A DNA stretch of 64,000 nt, taken from positions 62,001-126,000 of the forward strand of contig JAJEBV010000001.1 in assembly GCA_022822365.1 (NCBI GenBank). Reading direction: 5' to 3'. A program made the position numbers and the translations under genes. Each line of letters begins with the position of its first letter. Position 1 is the stretch's first letter. This stretch comes from Thermoanaerobaculia bacterium. Its GTDB lineage: Bacteria > Acidobacteriota > Thermoanaerobaculia > Multivoradales > Multivoraceae. Positions 24,930 to 31,641 of the stretch are shown one piece after another. Under the pieces are notes generated by a model. That model was not told the DNA's origin. It saw only the letters and a program-made list of their open reading frames with translations, and ran no database searches.

Positions 24930-27234
24930 TTAGCGTTGGCAACTGTCGGGGAACGCCTCGCTTGCGGTGATGGCGGAAGCAGGCGGGCCGGGCGTCTTGG
25001 AGTGGCTCCACGTCTTGCCGCTCGCCGTGTCGGTCACGGTGATGTCCAGACCCTGATCGGTGGCGGAGGCCGCGTACACCCAATGGTGACCGTTGATCTG
25101 GCATCCGTCCAGCACCTTGACCAACATCTCCCAGTTGCCCCGGTCGAAGAAGTAGAAGAGACCCGAGTTGTTCGTGCCCACAGGAACCGTTCTGGCTGGA
25201 CCCCGGTTCCCATCCGCTGTCGACCAGTCGACGGTCACCTCGAAGCGGCTGTCGGCAAGGCACAGCGACGAATCGCTGCCCATGCACCCCGAACCGGAGC
25301 TGCCGCTGAGCTGCGCCAAAGGCGGCTGTACGTAGCCGGCTGAGCCACTCCTGGCGCGATTCTCCGAGTCCGTCGCGGCCGAGCCACTTTCATCACAGGC
25401 CCCGGAGAACGCTTCGTTGTCCGTGATCGCCGGCGCTGGCCGACCGGCCTCGTTCCGGTACTCCTTGGCCTCACCATCGACCGTGTCTGTCACACGAATC
25501 GAGTAACCCTGGTCCGTCGTCGAGGCGCCGTAGACCCAGACGTGGCCGTTGACCGTGCAGCCGTCGAGCACCTTGATCAGGATCTCCCAGTTGTCACGAT
25601 CGAAGAAACGGAACAGGCCGGAGTCGTTCGTCCCCTCTGGAACCGCCTTGGCCGTACCCGTCTCCCCGCTCCCAGTCCACCAGTCCACGTGCACTTCGTA
25701 CCGGGAGTCCTGCAGACATAGTGTCTCACTGTCCGGCGTGCACGTACCCACGACTACCCCCGGATCCTCGGCGACAGCAAGTGTCACCGGCAGGTTCATG
25801 CCCTGATCGGGCCACCGGTCGGAAGTGATCGTCAAGTCGGCACGGTAGGTGTCGGGCTGACCGGGGAGCCAACGCGGCTGAACCGCAATCTCCGTCTTGC
25901 GCCCAGCTCCAAGGCTGACTTCCGCTGGATGAACCGCCAGCCAGTCCCGGTCCGAGGCGATGCGGTACGAAAGCTGCCGGTCGGCCATGTTCCTGAGTTC
26001 AAACGTCTGAGCCGGAGGCTGGGGCCCTCCGACCGACACGAAACTGAACGCTCTCGGAAAGGCCTTCACCGGAGCGCCTCTCGACACCGCGACGCCGATC
26101 TCGCCGCGAGCGCCGGCAGAGCCCGAAACCACGATGTGGTAGGGGCCGGCAGTGAGCGGGGGCGTCGATTCCGGCGTGATCACGAGTTCCGCTGTTCCCC
26201 CCGACAGTTCTTCGCGGAAGTGGGCGACGCCCTGTTCGCCTTGGCGAGCGGATAGTGTCCCGTCCATTGCGGCTTCCATCGCCAGATCCACGGCCAGTCT
26301 CGTTGCGCCGAACGGTACGTTGAACCAGAAACTGCGCGCCGAGCCCGCCGACAGATCGACTTCCTCCGTCCTGCCTTCCTCTAACAACGGATCCGCGGAG
26401 AAGATCGCTCGAAGCACCTTCGGGTGATCCGTGAGAACGGTCGTGACGGAATCGGTGCCGCGCGCTCCCTCCGCCCATGCAACGAATTTCTGTCCTGCCT
26501 CCGGTACGGCGGTCGCCTGGACGGCCGTGTCTTTCGGATAGTAGTGCTCGTTGGGGTACTCACCGGTTTGAAACAACATCTCCGTCGACGGTGGTGACAG
26601 TTGAACGGTTCCGCCTCCGCTCGTGCGGAGGAGTAACCAGTTGTAGGTCGTCCACTCCATCGTCAGCTTGCCCCCATTCGCTGGCACGTCGACCTCTCGC
26701 GTGATCTCGGCGTGGAAGTCCAGCCGCTCCCTGACGCCGTACACACCGTCGCTCCAGCCGTCGAAGCCGGGGACTGGATCGACCGCCGTTGAACCAACCT
26801 GATCGAGCACAGTGATTCGTACGTGCCCGTCGTCGTCTTCGAAAGTGGAGACGAAGTCAGAGACCGACGCTGTGAAGGGCGCTCCTCTAAGGCGCTCGTT
26901 CCTTGTGTAGCCGAATCCCCCACCATGGTCGTAGCCGGCACTGTCCACCGTGAACACGGGAGACTTCGTGAACACGGCGCCGAAGCCTGGATCTGGTCGT
27001 GCGACCTGCCCAACCGCCAGATGTGCAGGATTCCAACTGTTACCAGGAATCCAACTGATGAACTCACTCCCCGGACTCCACTCGTCGATCCACTCCACGA
27101 AACTCCAACCCGGACCCGGTATGGCCGCCAACTCAAGCCGGGTGCCCACTGTAAAGAAGTCGTCCGGACTTTGAGGGCGCACACTTACTCTGCTCGGGTG
27201 TGGATCACGCGGATCCGGGTGGAACGCCCAGGCA
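24930..27234 (-). pseudogene. Large secreted/surface protein, 5' end lost at IS junction; two tandem C-terminal Cys-bracketed domains
   Basis: Open frame from the IS left end to 24930; no start codon or signal peptide at the IS edge; repeats CTPDSETLCLQDSRYEVHVDWW... and CMGSDSSLCLADSRFEVTVDWS... Confidence 0.75.
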
Positions 27235-27274: not shown

Positions 27275-28135
27275 TCAGGCGGCGGCTTCGTAGTGTTGGT
27301 TGCAGGCTTTCTCGAAGTTGACGGGCGAGAGGTATCGGAGGGCGGAGTGGCGCCGATGGGGGTTGTACCAGCCCTCGATCCAGCGGAAGAGTTCGGTCTT
27401 CGCTTCGGCGCGATTCCGGAACGTGCTCCGATCCAGCAGTTCGCATTCGAGGCTGGCGAAGAAGCTCTCGGCCATCGCGTTGTCGTAGCAGTCTCCGACG
27501 GAACCCATCGAGACTGCGATGCCGGCGCCGCGGCAGCGCTTCCCGAAGGCCAGGGAAGTGTACTGGCTGCCTTGATCGGAGTGATGGATCACACCCTCGG
27601 GCCGGCGCTGGGCGATCGCCATCTCGAGCGCGTCGACGACGAGGTCCGTCGCGAGGGAGGAGTCCATGGCCCAGCCGACGATGCGACGGCTGAACACGTC
27701 CAGGACGACGGCCAGGTACAAGAAGCCGGAGAGCGTCGGTACGTAGGTGATGTCCGCCACCCACAGCCGGTCGGGGGCATCCGCCGAGAACTTCCGATCG
27801 ACCAGGTCCGGCGCCGGACGAGCGTTCCTGTCGCGTCGGGTCGTGCCCGGCTTCTTGCGCCGGCTTGCGCCTGTCAAACCGAACTCTCGCATCAGTCTGG
27901 CGACCCGCTTGCGGCTCGCGAAGACTCCTTCGTCGGCCAACTCGGCCTGAATCCGCGGCGCGCCATACGTACCCCGGCTCCGTCCGTGAATCGCCCGAAT
28001 GCGTTCGGCAAGAACGCCGTCCGCCTTGTTCCTGGCGGACCGAGGACGTTTCAACCAGGCGTAGTACCCGCTCGTGGAGACGCCGAGCACGCGAGCCATC
28101 GTCGTGATCCGGAACTCGGCCCGGTGCGCTCTCAT
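27275..28135 (-). CDS. IS3-family transposase OrfB (DDE integrase)
   Basis: LWVADITYVPTLSGFLYLAVVLDVFSRRIVGWAMDSS, GVIHHSDQGSQYTS, NAMAESFFASLECEL. Confidence 0.95.
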   Translation of the reverse strand: MRAHRAEFRITTMARVLGVSTSGYYAWLKRPRSARNKADGVLAERIRAIHGRSRGTYGAPRIQAELADEGVFASRKRVARLMREFGLTGASRRKKPGTTRRDRNARPAPDLVDRKFSADAPDRLWVADITYVPTLSGFLYLAVVLDVFSRRIVGWAMDSSLATDLVVDALEMAIAQRRPEGVIHHSDQGSQYTSLAFGKRCRGAGIAVSMGSVGDCYDNAMAESFFASLECELLDRSTFRNRAEAKTELFRWIEGWYNPHRRHSALRYLSPVNFEKACNQHYEAAA

Positions 28136-28440
28136 GAACCGGAAGACCCCTTCGGTTCCGTCTCCCGAGCGAACCAGGCCGTTGCTTTTGCCAGTATCTC
28201 CCGCTCTTCCCGAAGCCGGCGATTCTCCCGCCGCAGGCGCCGCAGCTCCGACCGCTCCGCTGTCGTCAGGCCGTCAACGCGGCGGCCTTCGTCCCGGTCC
28301 GCCTGCCTCACCCAGTTGCGGATCGACTGCGCTGAAGCCTCGAACTCGCGGGCGAGATGGTCCGGGCTCCGCCCGGACCGGACCAGATCCACCATCTGCT
28401 GCCGGTACTCTGCCGGGTACCGGGGTCTTGATCTTGGCAT
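28132..28440 (-). CDS. IS3-family transposase OrfA (HTH, leucine-zipper-like)
   Basis: MPRSRPRYPAEYRQQMVDLVRSGRSPDHLAREFEASAQSIRNWVRQADRDEG...; ATGA overlap with OrfB. Confidence 0.93.
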   Translation of the reverse strand: MPRSRPRYPAEYRQQMVDLVRSGRSPDHLAREFEASAQSIRNWVRQADRDEGRRVDGLTTAERSELRRLRRENRRLREEREILAKATAWFARETEPKGSSGS

Positions 28441-28468
28441 CGTGGATACCTCCTCCTCAAAGGATGCC

Positions 28469-28494
28469 GTGTCCACGAAACCGGGGCAAGCTCA
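28469..28494 (-). repeat. IS terminal inverted repeat (right in window)
   Basis: Reverse complement reads TGAGCTTGCCCCGGTTTCGTGGACAC. Confidence 0.9.
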
Positions 28495-29504
28495 AACCGC
28501 CAATGGTGTCGGCCTACGAACTCCACCTCGAAGACCTTGCCGTCGCCAAGCGGAGCATCGTCGGTACCTGTCGCGCGAACTCTTCCCAAGCCCAAGATCT
28601 TCTCGCAGTCCGCAAGAAGCACGACTCCGGGAGACGACATTTGCAGTGTCTTCCGGAATCCGCGGATATCGCGAAAGGCAACGGGATCGGCGAACCTCAG
28701 ACAGAACTCCATGAGTCCGTCTTCCTCATTCGCGAGGACGAGCCTACCCGCCCCCTCCGCTCCCTCATACGTCGACGCCGACACGCGATTGAACTGCATG
28801 AGGAGATCAGGACCGACGCTCCTGTCTTTCATCGCAACGCGCGGCGTGCGCATGAAACTCACTCCGGCTTGGCGAACAATCTCCGAGGTAGAACGGAAGC
28901 GCTGCGCGTGCTGACGACCGGGGTCCTGTCGCCGGAGTTCCTCTCGCGCCTCGTCCAGTACCGCGGCGACAGCGGCATGGACAAGGCTCGGGGGGCCGCT
29001 GAGGACGCCATCGCGGATCGGCTCCCGCAGTGGCGTGAAACGCTCGAACAGATCCTCGGGAAGTTGGATCACGGGAAAGACGTGGTACTGACCCACATCT
29101 CCAGCGATTCGCACGAAGGACCGAACTCCATGCTCTGAATCGCACTCCCGTAGAGTCTCCAGGAGGACGCCGCCGACCGAGAACCGGTACTTCTCTTCGC
29201 TCCAGTCCCGCCACGTCTGTTCGTCCACGTTGGTGATGATCTCGGTCGTACCATCTGCGATGGCTTTCTCTACATCGTCAAGAACGGACGAGAAGAGGTC
29301 CAGGCGCCATTCCCCATCTTCTGGTTCGAGACACACTTCGTTCCGGACTTCCTGGCCACGGATTCTCACTCCCACCAGGAAGCACTCGGGCCGCGCATCT
29401 GGAACTCCCAGTTCCTTCAGCACATCTGTCATGCAGTGCTGAACGGCGTCTCTGAAGTGGTGCTGGTAGCTCCACATGAACAACCGGATCACCTTAGGTT
29501 CCAT
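28495..29504 (-). pseudogene. Putative DisA_N/DAC-like nucleotide-binding sensor protein, 3' end truncated by IS
   Basis: MEPKVIRLFMWSYQHHFRDAVQHCMTDVLKELGV...FNRVSASTYEGAEGAGRLVLANEEDGLMEFCLRFADPVAFRDIRGFRKTLQMSSPGVVLLADCEKILGLGRV...VEFVGRHHWRF then IS sequence; family call is pattern-based. Confidence 0.4.
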
Positions 29505-29561
29505 ACGTCCTGAAGGTCGGGTCGCGCCGCAGCTCGACCGGGCTCTTGACCGGGAGCCCGC

Positions 29562-29696
29562 TTACCGAGCACTCCTCCGCGACTGCTTCGGCGGCGGCTT
29601 CGGCTCGGGCTTGGGCTTCGGCTTCGGTTTCGGCGGCGGCGGAGTCGGTTTGGGCGGAGGCGGCCAGCCTGCCGTGCGGATCTCCTTCGGGCTCAT
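29562..29696 (-). CDS. Pro/Lys-rich 44-aa micro-ORF
   Basis: MSPKEIRTAGWPPPPKPTPPPPKPKPKPKPEPKPPPKQSRRSAR; ATGA overlap with the upstream 2TM gene. Confidence 0.45.
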   Translation of the reverse strand: MSPKEIRTAGWPPPPKPTPPPPKPKPKPKPEPKPPPKQSRRSAR

Positions 29697-30199
29697 GCAG
29701 ACGCGCCGGACGCCAGTGCGATCGCCTGATCGTGGCAGCGATCGAGAAGCTTGGCGCGTTCCGGCTGGTCGGCTACGTCCCGGTCGATATGCCGCGCGTG
29801 CTCCCGCAGTCGAGCGAGGGCGTCGTGCACACCCTCGCGGTCGATGTGGCCGCTTTCGAGATCGACCCATGTGGTCTGCAGACCATGATGAAGATCGGCC
29901 CAGGCGACGGAGCAGTTCACGAACCTGTTGGCGGACTCGCCGTACTTACCCAGGCCGGCGAGGCCACTGAGAACCGCGGCCGGCACCGTCAACCACAGCA
30001 GCCACAGATCGACCTCGCGCCCGCTCAGAATGGCCGTGCAGGCAGCAGCCGAAAGGCCAGCCGCCAGCGCCGCGGCGCCGTTCTGGATGCGCCGCGCGCG
30101 CACGGCCAGCCGGGCGAAGTACATGGAGCGCATGTGGGCCGCGATCATCTCTTCCCACACTCGGACGCGGTGTTCTTCGGACGGCGGCTCGACGGTCAT
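29693..30199 (-). CDS. Two-TM protein, SLATT-like
   Basis: MTVEPPSEEHRVRVWEEMIAAHMRSMYFARLAVRARRIQNGAAALAAGLSAAACTAILSGREVDLWLLWLTVPAAVLSGLAGLGKYGESANRF...: N-terminal helix, two TM helices, soluble helical tail. Confidence 0.5.
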   Translation of the reverse strand: MTVEPPSEEHRVRVWEEMIAAHMRSMYFARLAVRARRIQNGAAALAAGLSAAACTAILSGREVDLWLLWLTVPAAVLSGLAGLGKYGESANRFVNCSVAWADLHHGLQTTWVDLESGHIDREGVHDALARLREHARHIDRDVADQPERAKLLDRCHDQAIALASGASA

Positions 30200-30327: not shown

Positions 30328-31641
30328 TCAGGCCCCCCGGATCCCCTGCATCCACTTGCCCCGGGTGCGCTTCATCAGCTTCCGCATCTGGCGGTACTGC
30401 CGGAGCAACTGATTCAGTTCCTGGACGGTGCGGCCGGAGCCACGGGCGATGCGGCGGCGCCGGCTGGCGTTGAGGATCGCCGGGTTGCGGCGTTCGCGCG
30501 GGGTCATCGAGTCGATCAGGGCGGTGATGCCGACCAGGCGGCTCTCGTCCACAGCGCCCGCGAGGTCGGCGCCGCGGAACTGACCGGGAAGCAGTTCGAG
30601 GAGCTGGGACAGCGGCCCCATGCGGCGAAGCTGCCGCAACTGGTCTCTCAGGTCCTCGAGGGTGAACTCCTGGCGGGCGATGCGCTCGGCGAGGCGCTCC
30701 GTTTCCTCGCGGTCGACGACCCGCTCGGCCTTCTCGATCAGGGACAGCACATCGCCCATGCCCAGGATGCGGGAGGCGATGCGGTCCGGCGCGAAGGACT
30801 CGAGGTCTTCCAGCTTCTCGCCGACGCCGACGAAGCGGAGCGGAACCTCGGTGACGCCCCGGAGCGACAGCGCGGCGCCGCCGCGGGCGTCGCCGTCGAG
30901 CTTCGTCATCACGGCGCCGGTGAGCGGCGCGCCCTCGGCGAACGCGGCCGCGCTCCGCACCGCGTCCTGCCCGGTCATCGCGTCGCAGACGAAGAGCGTC
31001 TCGCAGGGGTCGACCCGGTCCGCCAGCGCCACGAGTTCGGCCATCGACTCGTCGTCCACGTGCAGCCGGCCCGCGGTGTCGAAGATCAGCGTGTCGAAGC
31101 CGCCCTCCCGAGCCGCCGCCAGGGCACGGTTCGAGAACGCCGGCAGATCCTCCCCTGCTGAAGGCTCGATGACCGTGGCGCCGGCCGCGGCGCCGACCTG
31201 CCTGAGCTGCTCCACCGCCGCGGCCCGCCGGAGGTCTCCGGCCGCCAGCACCGGGTTCCTGCCCTGCCCGCGAAGCCGCACCGCCAGCTTGCCGGCGGTC
31301 GTCGTCTTGCCCGAGCCCTGGAGGCCGCAGAGCAGCACCACCGCCGGCCGGCCCGTGAGTTCGAGCTCCGCGCCCGGCTCCCCCAGCACCGCGATCAGCT
31401 CATCGCGGACGATCCGGATCATCTGCTGGTCCGGGGTCAGGCTGCTCAGCACTTCCTCGCCCAGCGCCAGCTCCTGGACCCGGGCGATGAAGGAGCGGAC
31501 CACCTGGACGTGGACGTCGGCCTCCAGGAGCGCGAGGCGGATCTGCCGCACGGCCCGCCGCACGTGATCCTCCGAGATCCGGCCTTCCGAGCGCAGGGAG
31601 CGGAAGACTCCCTGGAGCTTGTCCTGCAGACCCTCGAACAT
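30328..31641 (-). CDS. ffh: Signal recognition particle protein Ffh
   Basis: LCGLQGSGKTTTAGKLAVRL, DTAGRLHVDDESM, TKLDGDARGGAALSLRGVTEVPLRFVGVGEKLEDLESF, M-domain. Confidence 0.96.
   Translation of the reverse strand: MFEGLQDKLQGVFRSLRSEGRISEDHVRRAVRQIRLALLEADVHVQVVRSFIARVQELALGEEVLSSLTPDQQMIRIVRDELIAVLGEPGAELELTGRPAVVLLCGLQGSGKTTTAGKLAVRLRGQGRNPVLAAGDLRRAAAVEQLRQVGAAAGATVIEPSAGEDLPAFSNRALAAAREGGFDTLIFDTAGRLHVDDESMAELVALADRVDPCETLFVCDAMTGQDAVRSAAAFAEGAPLTGAVMTKLDGDARGGAALSLRGVTEVPLRFVGVGEKLEDLESFAPDRIASRILGMGDVLSLIEKAERVVDREETERLAERIARQEFTLEDLRDQLRQLRRMGPLSQLLELLPGQFRGADLAGAVDESRLVGITALIDSMTPRERRNPAILNASRRRRIARGSGRTVQELNQLLRQYRQMRKLMKRTRGKWMQGIRGA

Follow-up and report, generated by a model that had tools for sequence, protein, structure and literature searches.

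In conflict systems, SLATT proteins are the predicted pore effectors (PMC7159879, PMC12483538) and are often paired with nucleotide-signalling enzymes (PMC7159879). A small membrane protein is likewise the predicted or shown defence effector in Hailong, in DRT9 with SLATT and in CBASS with Cap15 (PMC12483538), where an enzyme makes a nucleotide or DNA signal. The DS-2 system, validated in E. coli, comprises a phospholipase, a cGAS-like CD-NTase and a diadenylate cyclase (DAC); mutation of two predicted catalytic residues of the DAC led to loss of defence, and 15 of 30 DAC homologues adjoined a CBASS (PMC13092281). Toxin–antitoxin pairs with a membrane toxin are a further point of comparison, as small, mobile units of two overlapping genes.

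The window analysed here, a stretch of 64,000 nucleotides from a Thermoanaerobaculia bacterium, contains an island with a gene for a SLATT-like protein and part of a gene for a DS-2-type cyclase. Its features are as follows.

30328-31641, minus strand: ffh, a housekeeping gene flanking the island on its 5' side
30199 (ATG) to 29693 (stop), minus strand: 2TM gene, encoding a 168-aa SLATT-like two-TM (2TM) membrane protein
29696-29562, minus strand: micro-ORF, encoding a 44-aa Pro/Lys-rich microprotein; its start overlaps the 2TM stop (ATGA)
29504 (ATG) to 28495, minus strand: gene 3, a diadenylate cyclase gene (DACNG-DACNH-DAC; DS2_3 family) of which an insertion sequence (IS) leaves the N-terminal 336 codons
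27235-28494, minus strand: IS3-family element of 1260 bp with ends TGAGCTTGCCCC...GGGGCAACTTCA and HTH_Tnp_1 and rve transposase ORFs
28132-28476, minus strand: orfA of the IS3-family element
27275-28135, minus strand: orfB of the IS3-family element
24930-27234, minus strand: C-terminal portion of a BACON/InlB-repeat surface-type protein, unrelated and attached here via the IS; contig C25 carries the other half

The GC content of the island is about 60–64%, against 69–73% in the surrounding DNA. In relatives, ffh is followed by rpsP-KH-rimM-trmD, and the ffh–rpsP interval is an accessory insertion site in the genus (the 30328 side of the window, L051 and L022). A first-pass annotation of the window had described an IS-disrupted accessory island between housekeeping genes, with three minus-strand ORFs at these coordinates, an ATGA overlap and a gap of 57 bp between the micro-ORF and the start of gene 3, and in all of this it was right. 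It had also proposed that the three genes form an undescribed operon. That proposal was not supported for a conserved triple, which was found at the window locus only.

We favour, at about an even chance, the reading that the locus consists of two modules: (i) a solitary, membrane-acting, defence- or toxin-like pair of the 2TM protein and a polyproline microprotein and (ii) a DS-2-type cyclase split by an IS. The pair is the new part of the locus and is apparently undescribed in Pfam, NCBIfam, PADLOC 2023, PHROGs and the open-access literature, and a SLATT protein with a proline-rich partner was not found in the last of these.

A DS-2-type cyclase divided by an IS3-family element

Residues 10–218 of gene 3 match Pfam DACNG (5e-47) and residues 234–339 match Pfam DACNH (9.7e-21), which are the sensor domains that precede a diadenylate cyclase domain in gene 3 homologues. 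NCBIfam DS2_3_antiphage (NF053872) matches the fragment at 1.1e-84 and a Citrobacter protein at 7e-242; against an equivalog cut-off of 630 bits the fragment scores 284.9, which is below it, and a full-length homologue 803.8. The frame of gene 3 is open up to the IS edge (28494/28495), with the ORF extending mechanically to 398 aa inside the element, and the homologues, from plasmids and genomes, are about 490–610 aa long and extend through a DAC domain that bears DGA/DGT and RGARYNS-type motifs. The protein of about 336 aa proposed in the first-pass annotation is thus a real frame as far as the IS, but it is the front part of a longer gene. The same applies to the DAC/DisA_N-like sensor recognised in it: the resemblance is genuine, and the domains belong to a split cyclase and not to a stand-alone protein. 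A separate 'DAC sensor' protein was therefore rejected as a candidate.

The DAC catalytic domain, cut from the gene 3 ORF by the IS, is present elsewhere in the genome, where contig C29 ends (G000:C29:289961-290701), a half that had been missed. It is 43% identical to residues 333–579 of the Citrobacter protein (the two halves were compared separately), contains zero stops and matches PF02457 (1.7e-6), with DGA and RGARYNS motifs.

This genome carries five copies of the element with ten flanks, and their 3-bp target-site duplications fall into five exclusive pairs: GTT (window left and C29), TGC (window right and C25), GGG, CAG and CTC. Contig C29 breaks within an IS copy, and at the TGC pair a frame of 911 codons reads through the junction. 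Because the duplications of all five copies pair in this way, the join in the window is chimeric or rearranged, through chimeric assembly or through an IS–IS rearrangement, and the DNA past the IS is not the true neighbour of gene 3, which had also been overlooked. A 944-aa BACON ORF, considered as a member of the island, was rejected since it flanks a different IS copy. On C29, the DAC half is followed by a convergent MmeI-type enzyme and then by rpsP-KH-rimM-trmD. This order, taken with the ffh–rpsP order in relatives, gives an original arrangement of ffh, 2TM, micro-ORF, DAC (with the IS), MmeI and rpsP. The MmeI-type restriction-methylation gene convergent to the DAC half (L059, 7074-9911) and a second one that is convergent to a 2TM/micro-ORF pair in genome G013 (L021, 16172-19186) are both divergent members of the MmeI family.

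Gene 3 is the third gene of the published CBASS-like DS-2 system, and this identity with DS2_3 makes the cyclase part of the locus known: gene 3 and the C29 half together correspond to the DAC component. For comparison we assembled 15 DACNG-DACNH-DAC loci. Single-protein scans of viral contigs and genome contigs gave no DACNG relative; an alignment query yielded 11 loci. CapV adjoins the DAC in 8 of the 15 loci, accompanied in 7 by an intact CD-NTase (in L012 a CD-NTase was not recovered), and Cap15 and a CD-NTase lie beside it in one, from Zoogloea. The window locus differs from DS-2 in having no CapV or CD-NTase, neither of which was seen in the island or at the C29 end, in the split of its cyclase gene and in the 2TM/micro-ORF pair upstream. 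A single query with the Citrobacter protein found no CD-NTase like that of DS-2 in the genome. Because the DAC is split by the IS, the triple of 2TM, micro-ORF and DAC is not functional as such in this genome. In open-licence papers, a literature search found neither DACNG by name nor a CBASS with a DAC plus patatin.

Some of the comparison loci have further neighbours. In Zoogloea oleivorans (L010, 2955-5881) the DS2_3 cyclase with Cap15 and CD-NTase adjoins two genes, one divergent, small and mCpol-like and the other 2TM effector-like, which together resemble a Panoptes pair, with weak PADLOC hits. In Shewanella sp. ANA-3 (L014, 7822-11106) the DS-2-type operon is followed by a gene for an MkoC-like helicase, and that of L012 by an ORF of the same length with a near-identical start.

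The 2TM family and its polyproline micro-ORF

The window 2TM protein has exactly two hydrophobic segments (42–58 and 67–83), as the first-pass annotation had it, and two were found in 32/32 family members checked. In the rows of the alignment that were printed, Lys and Arg residues lie in both tails, with 0–1 in the loop, which suggests that both tails are cytosolic. The SLATT-like assignment had been a guess, and it proved a good one at the level of remote similarity. Nothing in Pfam matches the window copy, and NCBIfam SLATT_4 aligns with its residues 32–145 at 2.3e-5 (24.3 bits, below the curated cut-off of 55). Across the family, SLATT_4 matches 28/32 members (best 5.2e-8), NCBIfam SLATT_1 15/32 (best 7.4e-7) and Pfam SLATT_1 14/32 (best 9e-5), and hhalign of the 2TM profile against ten SLATT_4-matched proteins gives 91% with an E-value of 8.9e-7 over 100 columns. 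A PDB sequence search returned no credible relative. AlphaFold without an alignment produced poor models of both proteins modelled (pLDDT 47 for the 2TM protein, with low-confidence helices), and a fold search with the 2TM model was meaningless. Based on the profile matches, the family is probably a remote SLATT branch. In common with SLATT_4 and SLATT_1 (NF033632, NF033634; PF18181, PF18186) it has a pair of TM helices with helical parts on the N- and C-terminal sides, the latter forming a tail. The window protein falls below the curated cut-offs, and the family is solitary, with no recurrent nucleotide-signalling partner at the loci compared. The families also differ in the overlapping polyproline microprotein, which accompanies 2TM genes and was found at none of the above-cut-off SLATT_4 loci screened.

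In G013, a 45%-identical 2TM gene (L004) has a GTGA overlap with a 34-aa ORF ending PKPRPKPPKPKK. When 26 SLATT_4 matches were screened, a similar micro-ORF was present at two more distant 2TM genes (G017 and G121), one of whose peptides has EIRTA in common with the window microprotein. A first search used a profile of five 2TM proteins, with the micro-ORF ignored, and recovered further members in the phylum: those in G385 (two), G015, G287 and G417 carry a micro-ORF, L112 has a Pro-rich frame whose start is not clear, L104 has no micro-ORF and L105 is ambiguous. A second 2TM profile was searched against 399 genomes of another class, 34 of which contain the family. We read 29 new loci (28 genomic and one viral), of which two stop at contig edges and 27 are testable, and scored a micro-ORF where a 20-residue stretch had at least 10 P or K and the ORF started near the 2TM stop. 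By this rule the micro-ORF, which the first-pass annotation had singled out for a conservation check, is conserved at 19/27 testable loci, and at 24/27 if broken, displaced or start-unclear copies (L134, L136, L139, L143 and L154) are counted. It was not found at the 2TM homologues of L137, L148 and L150. Coding-like ORFs from the same regions served as controls. A P/K-rich overlap occurs in 9/470 ORFs of the first set, all nine being 2TM genes, and in 1/118 of the second, a tandem 2TM copy, leaving 0/461 and 0/117 (0/578 together) among non-2TM ORFs.

The micro-ORFs are mostly 27–58 aa long. In rough consensus, the N-terminus is short and polar, W/Y-P-P-x-P-K/R-P is often present, and then come a proline run, commonly of 4–11 and at most of 15 residues, and a terminal Lys. 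In four pairs of related micro-ORFs (123 aligned codons), differences at the three codon positions are distributed 19/17/64, with the small caveat that the initial few codons lie within the 2TM gene, and 52 codon changes are synonymous versus 25 non-synonymous. The third-position bias is evidence for translation of the predicted micro-ORF and for protein-level selection on its peptide.

The 2TM homologues span at least 8 families within one bacterial phylum; none was found in plasmids or in phage records. Their neighbours at 27 loci are diverse (folP/ftsH, ftsZ, enolase, glnS, pyrG and others, named by eye from sequence), and clustering of these neighbours recovers a shared family only in two locus pairs and in tandem 2TM copies. 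Most pair loci lie between housekeeping genes, not in obvious defence islands, which weighs against a defence- or toxin-like reading of the pair. On one viral contig (IMGVR_UViG_3300005532_000243; L155, 5004-5640) the pair is flanked by a tail-tip gene and, on the other side, by a tail/endolysin region; this is a typical site for cargo genes on a phage or prophage contig. Tandem or multiple 2TM copies are seen in L166 (1539-2795) and in G610, G669, G693 and G797. All that G001 retains at the ffh site is a decayed 2TM remnant. The micro-ORF of G009 has a frameshift, with another IS behind it; this frameshift and the G001 remnant point to decay of the pair in this lineage. Taken as a whole, comparison of the loci shows a conserved, coupled and mobile pair, whose predicted products are a membrane protein similar to SLATT and a polyproline peptide.

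Possible modes of action

The pair can be compared with the signalling systems and with the toxin–antitoxin pairs described above. Hailong, DRT9 with SLATT and CBASS with Cap15 have an enzyme that makes the signal, and the 2TM/micro-ORF pair has none. In contrast to the membrane-toxin pairs, the gene for the membrane protein comes first, and the roles of toxin and antitoxin are putative, as is any role in phage defence or toxicity. To our knowledge the polyproline peptide is unlike known antitoxins, and the 2TM homologues without a micro-ORF (L137, L148 and L150) fit poorly with a strict antitoxin.

In the mechanism that we propose for the pair, the 2TM protein would probably oligomerise to form a membrane pore, as predicted for SLATT proteins, and the pore would depolarise or kill an infected or stressed cell. 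The microprotein would have a basic tail on a polyproline-II rod; after synthesis in the cytosol it would probably bind the cytosolic helices and keep the pore shut. Polyproline requires EF-P and is translated slowly. Because runs of up to 15 prolines would be made slowly and in dependence on EF-P, the supply of microprotein could report on translation. More speculatively, a phage that shuts down host translation would deplete the microprotein and the pore would open. The general form of this idea, a widespread undescribed class of solitary SLATT-type pore modules in which EF-P-dependent synthesis of a polyproline microprotein senses the loss of translation, is one that we advance tentatively and with considerable doubt.

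That the peptide instead assists the 2TM protein, as a co-effector or in assembly, is rather unlikely; in this reading it would not inhibit the pore but might, as a rod, open or anchor it. The fixed gene order and the coupling would fit such a role, and the positive tail may suit contact with membrane or nucleic acid.

We consider improbable a three-gene conflict operon in which c-di-AMP made by the DAC gates the SLATT pore, with the microprotein as an adaptor and an intact form equivalent to a CD-NTase-free DS-2 in which SLATT replaces the phospholipase. The three genes do share a strand and an island with only 57 bp between micro-ORF and gene 3, DS2_3 genes occur with varying membrane effectors (CapV at 8/15 loci and Cap15 at one), and SLATT often pairs with nucleotide-signalling enzymes (PMC7159879). 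However, the link of the pair to a DAC rests on a single locus. G009 and G013 have the pair, or a remnant of it, without a DAC; no DACNG/DAC gene adjoins any other 2TM-family member; and no 2TM gene was found at the 15 DACNG-DACNH-DAC loci (blastp, 1e-4). As a nucleotide-signalling partner, DAC occurs at the window locus only, with no recurrent partner in 27 other neighbourhoods. The split DAC and the single query that found no DS-2-like CD-NTase in the genome also count against such an operon. Co-occurrence in other genomes had been named in the first-pass annotation as a test that could refute it, and there the pair co-occurs but the triple does not.

Little credence also goes to the suggestion that the proline-rich ORF acts in cis, with ribosome pausing tuning 2TM expression or mRNA stability and a peptide that has no target. 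It would fit proline runs of up to 15 and a start that overlaps or abuts the 2TM stop, and the general requirement of polyproline for EF-P agrees with it. The ORF is, however, downstream of the 2TM gene and not upstream, and the WPP/YPP before the run, the terminal Lys and sequence conservation beyond the run itself (ASSGKPP; PID..GG.PPRPSSP) argue for a peptide with a putative binding function. Finally, although CCG/CCC repeats arise easily at 65–70% GC, the control ORFs and the codon-position bias led us to reject the micro-ORF as a by-product of GC-rich DNA, a reading to which we assign next to no probability.

Returning to the two-module reading, the cyclase half of the locus represents an inactivated DS-2 cyclase outside a CBASS setting, and its surroundings exemplify the false gene neighbourhood that can arise when sequence is joined through a multi-copy IS. 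The other half concerns a microprotein that is small enough for gene callers to overlook easily. The action of SLATT proteins is usually explained through a nucleotide signal from an adjoining gene, and the 2TM family is without such an enzyme. If the pair works as a unit, it would offer a simple system for the gating of a SLATT pore and a possible link between the translation status of the cell and its death.
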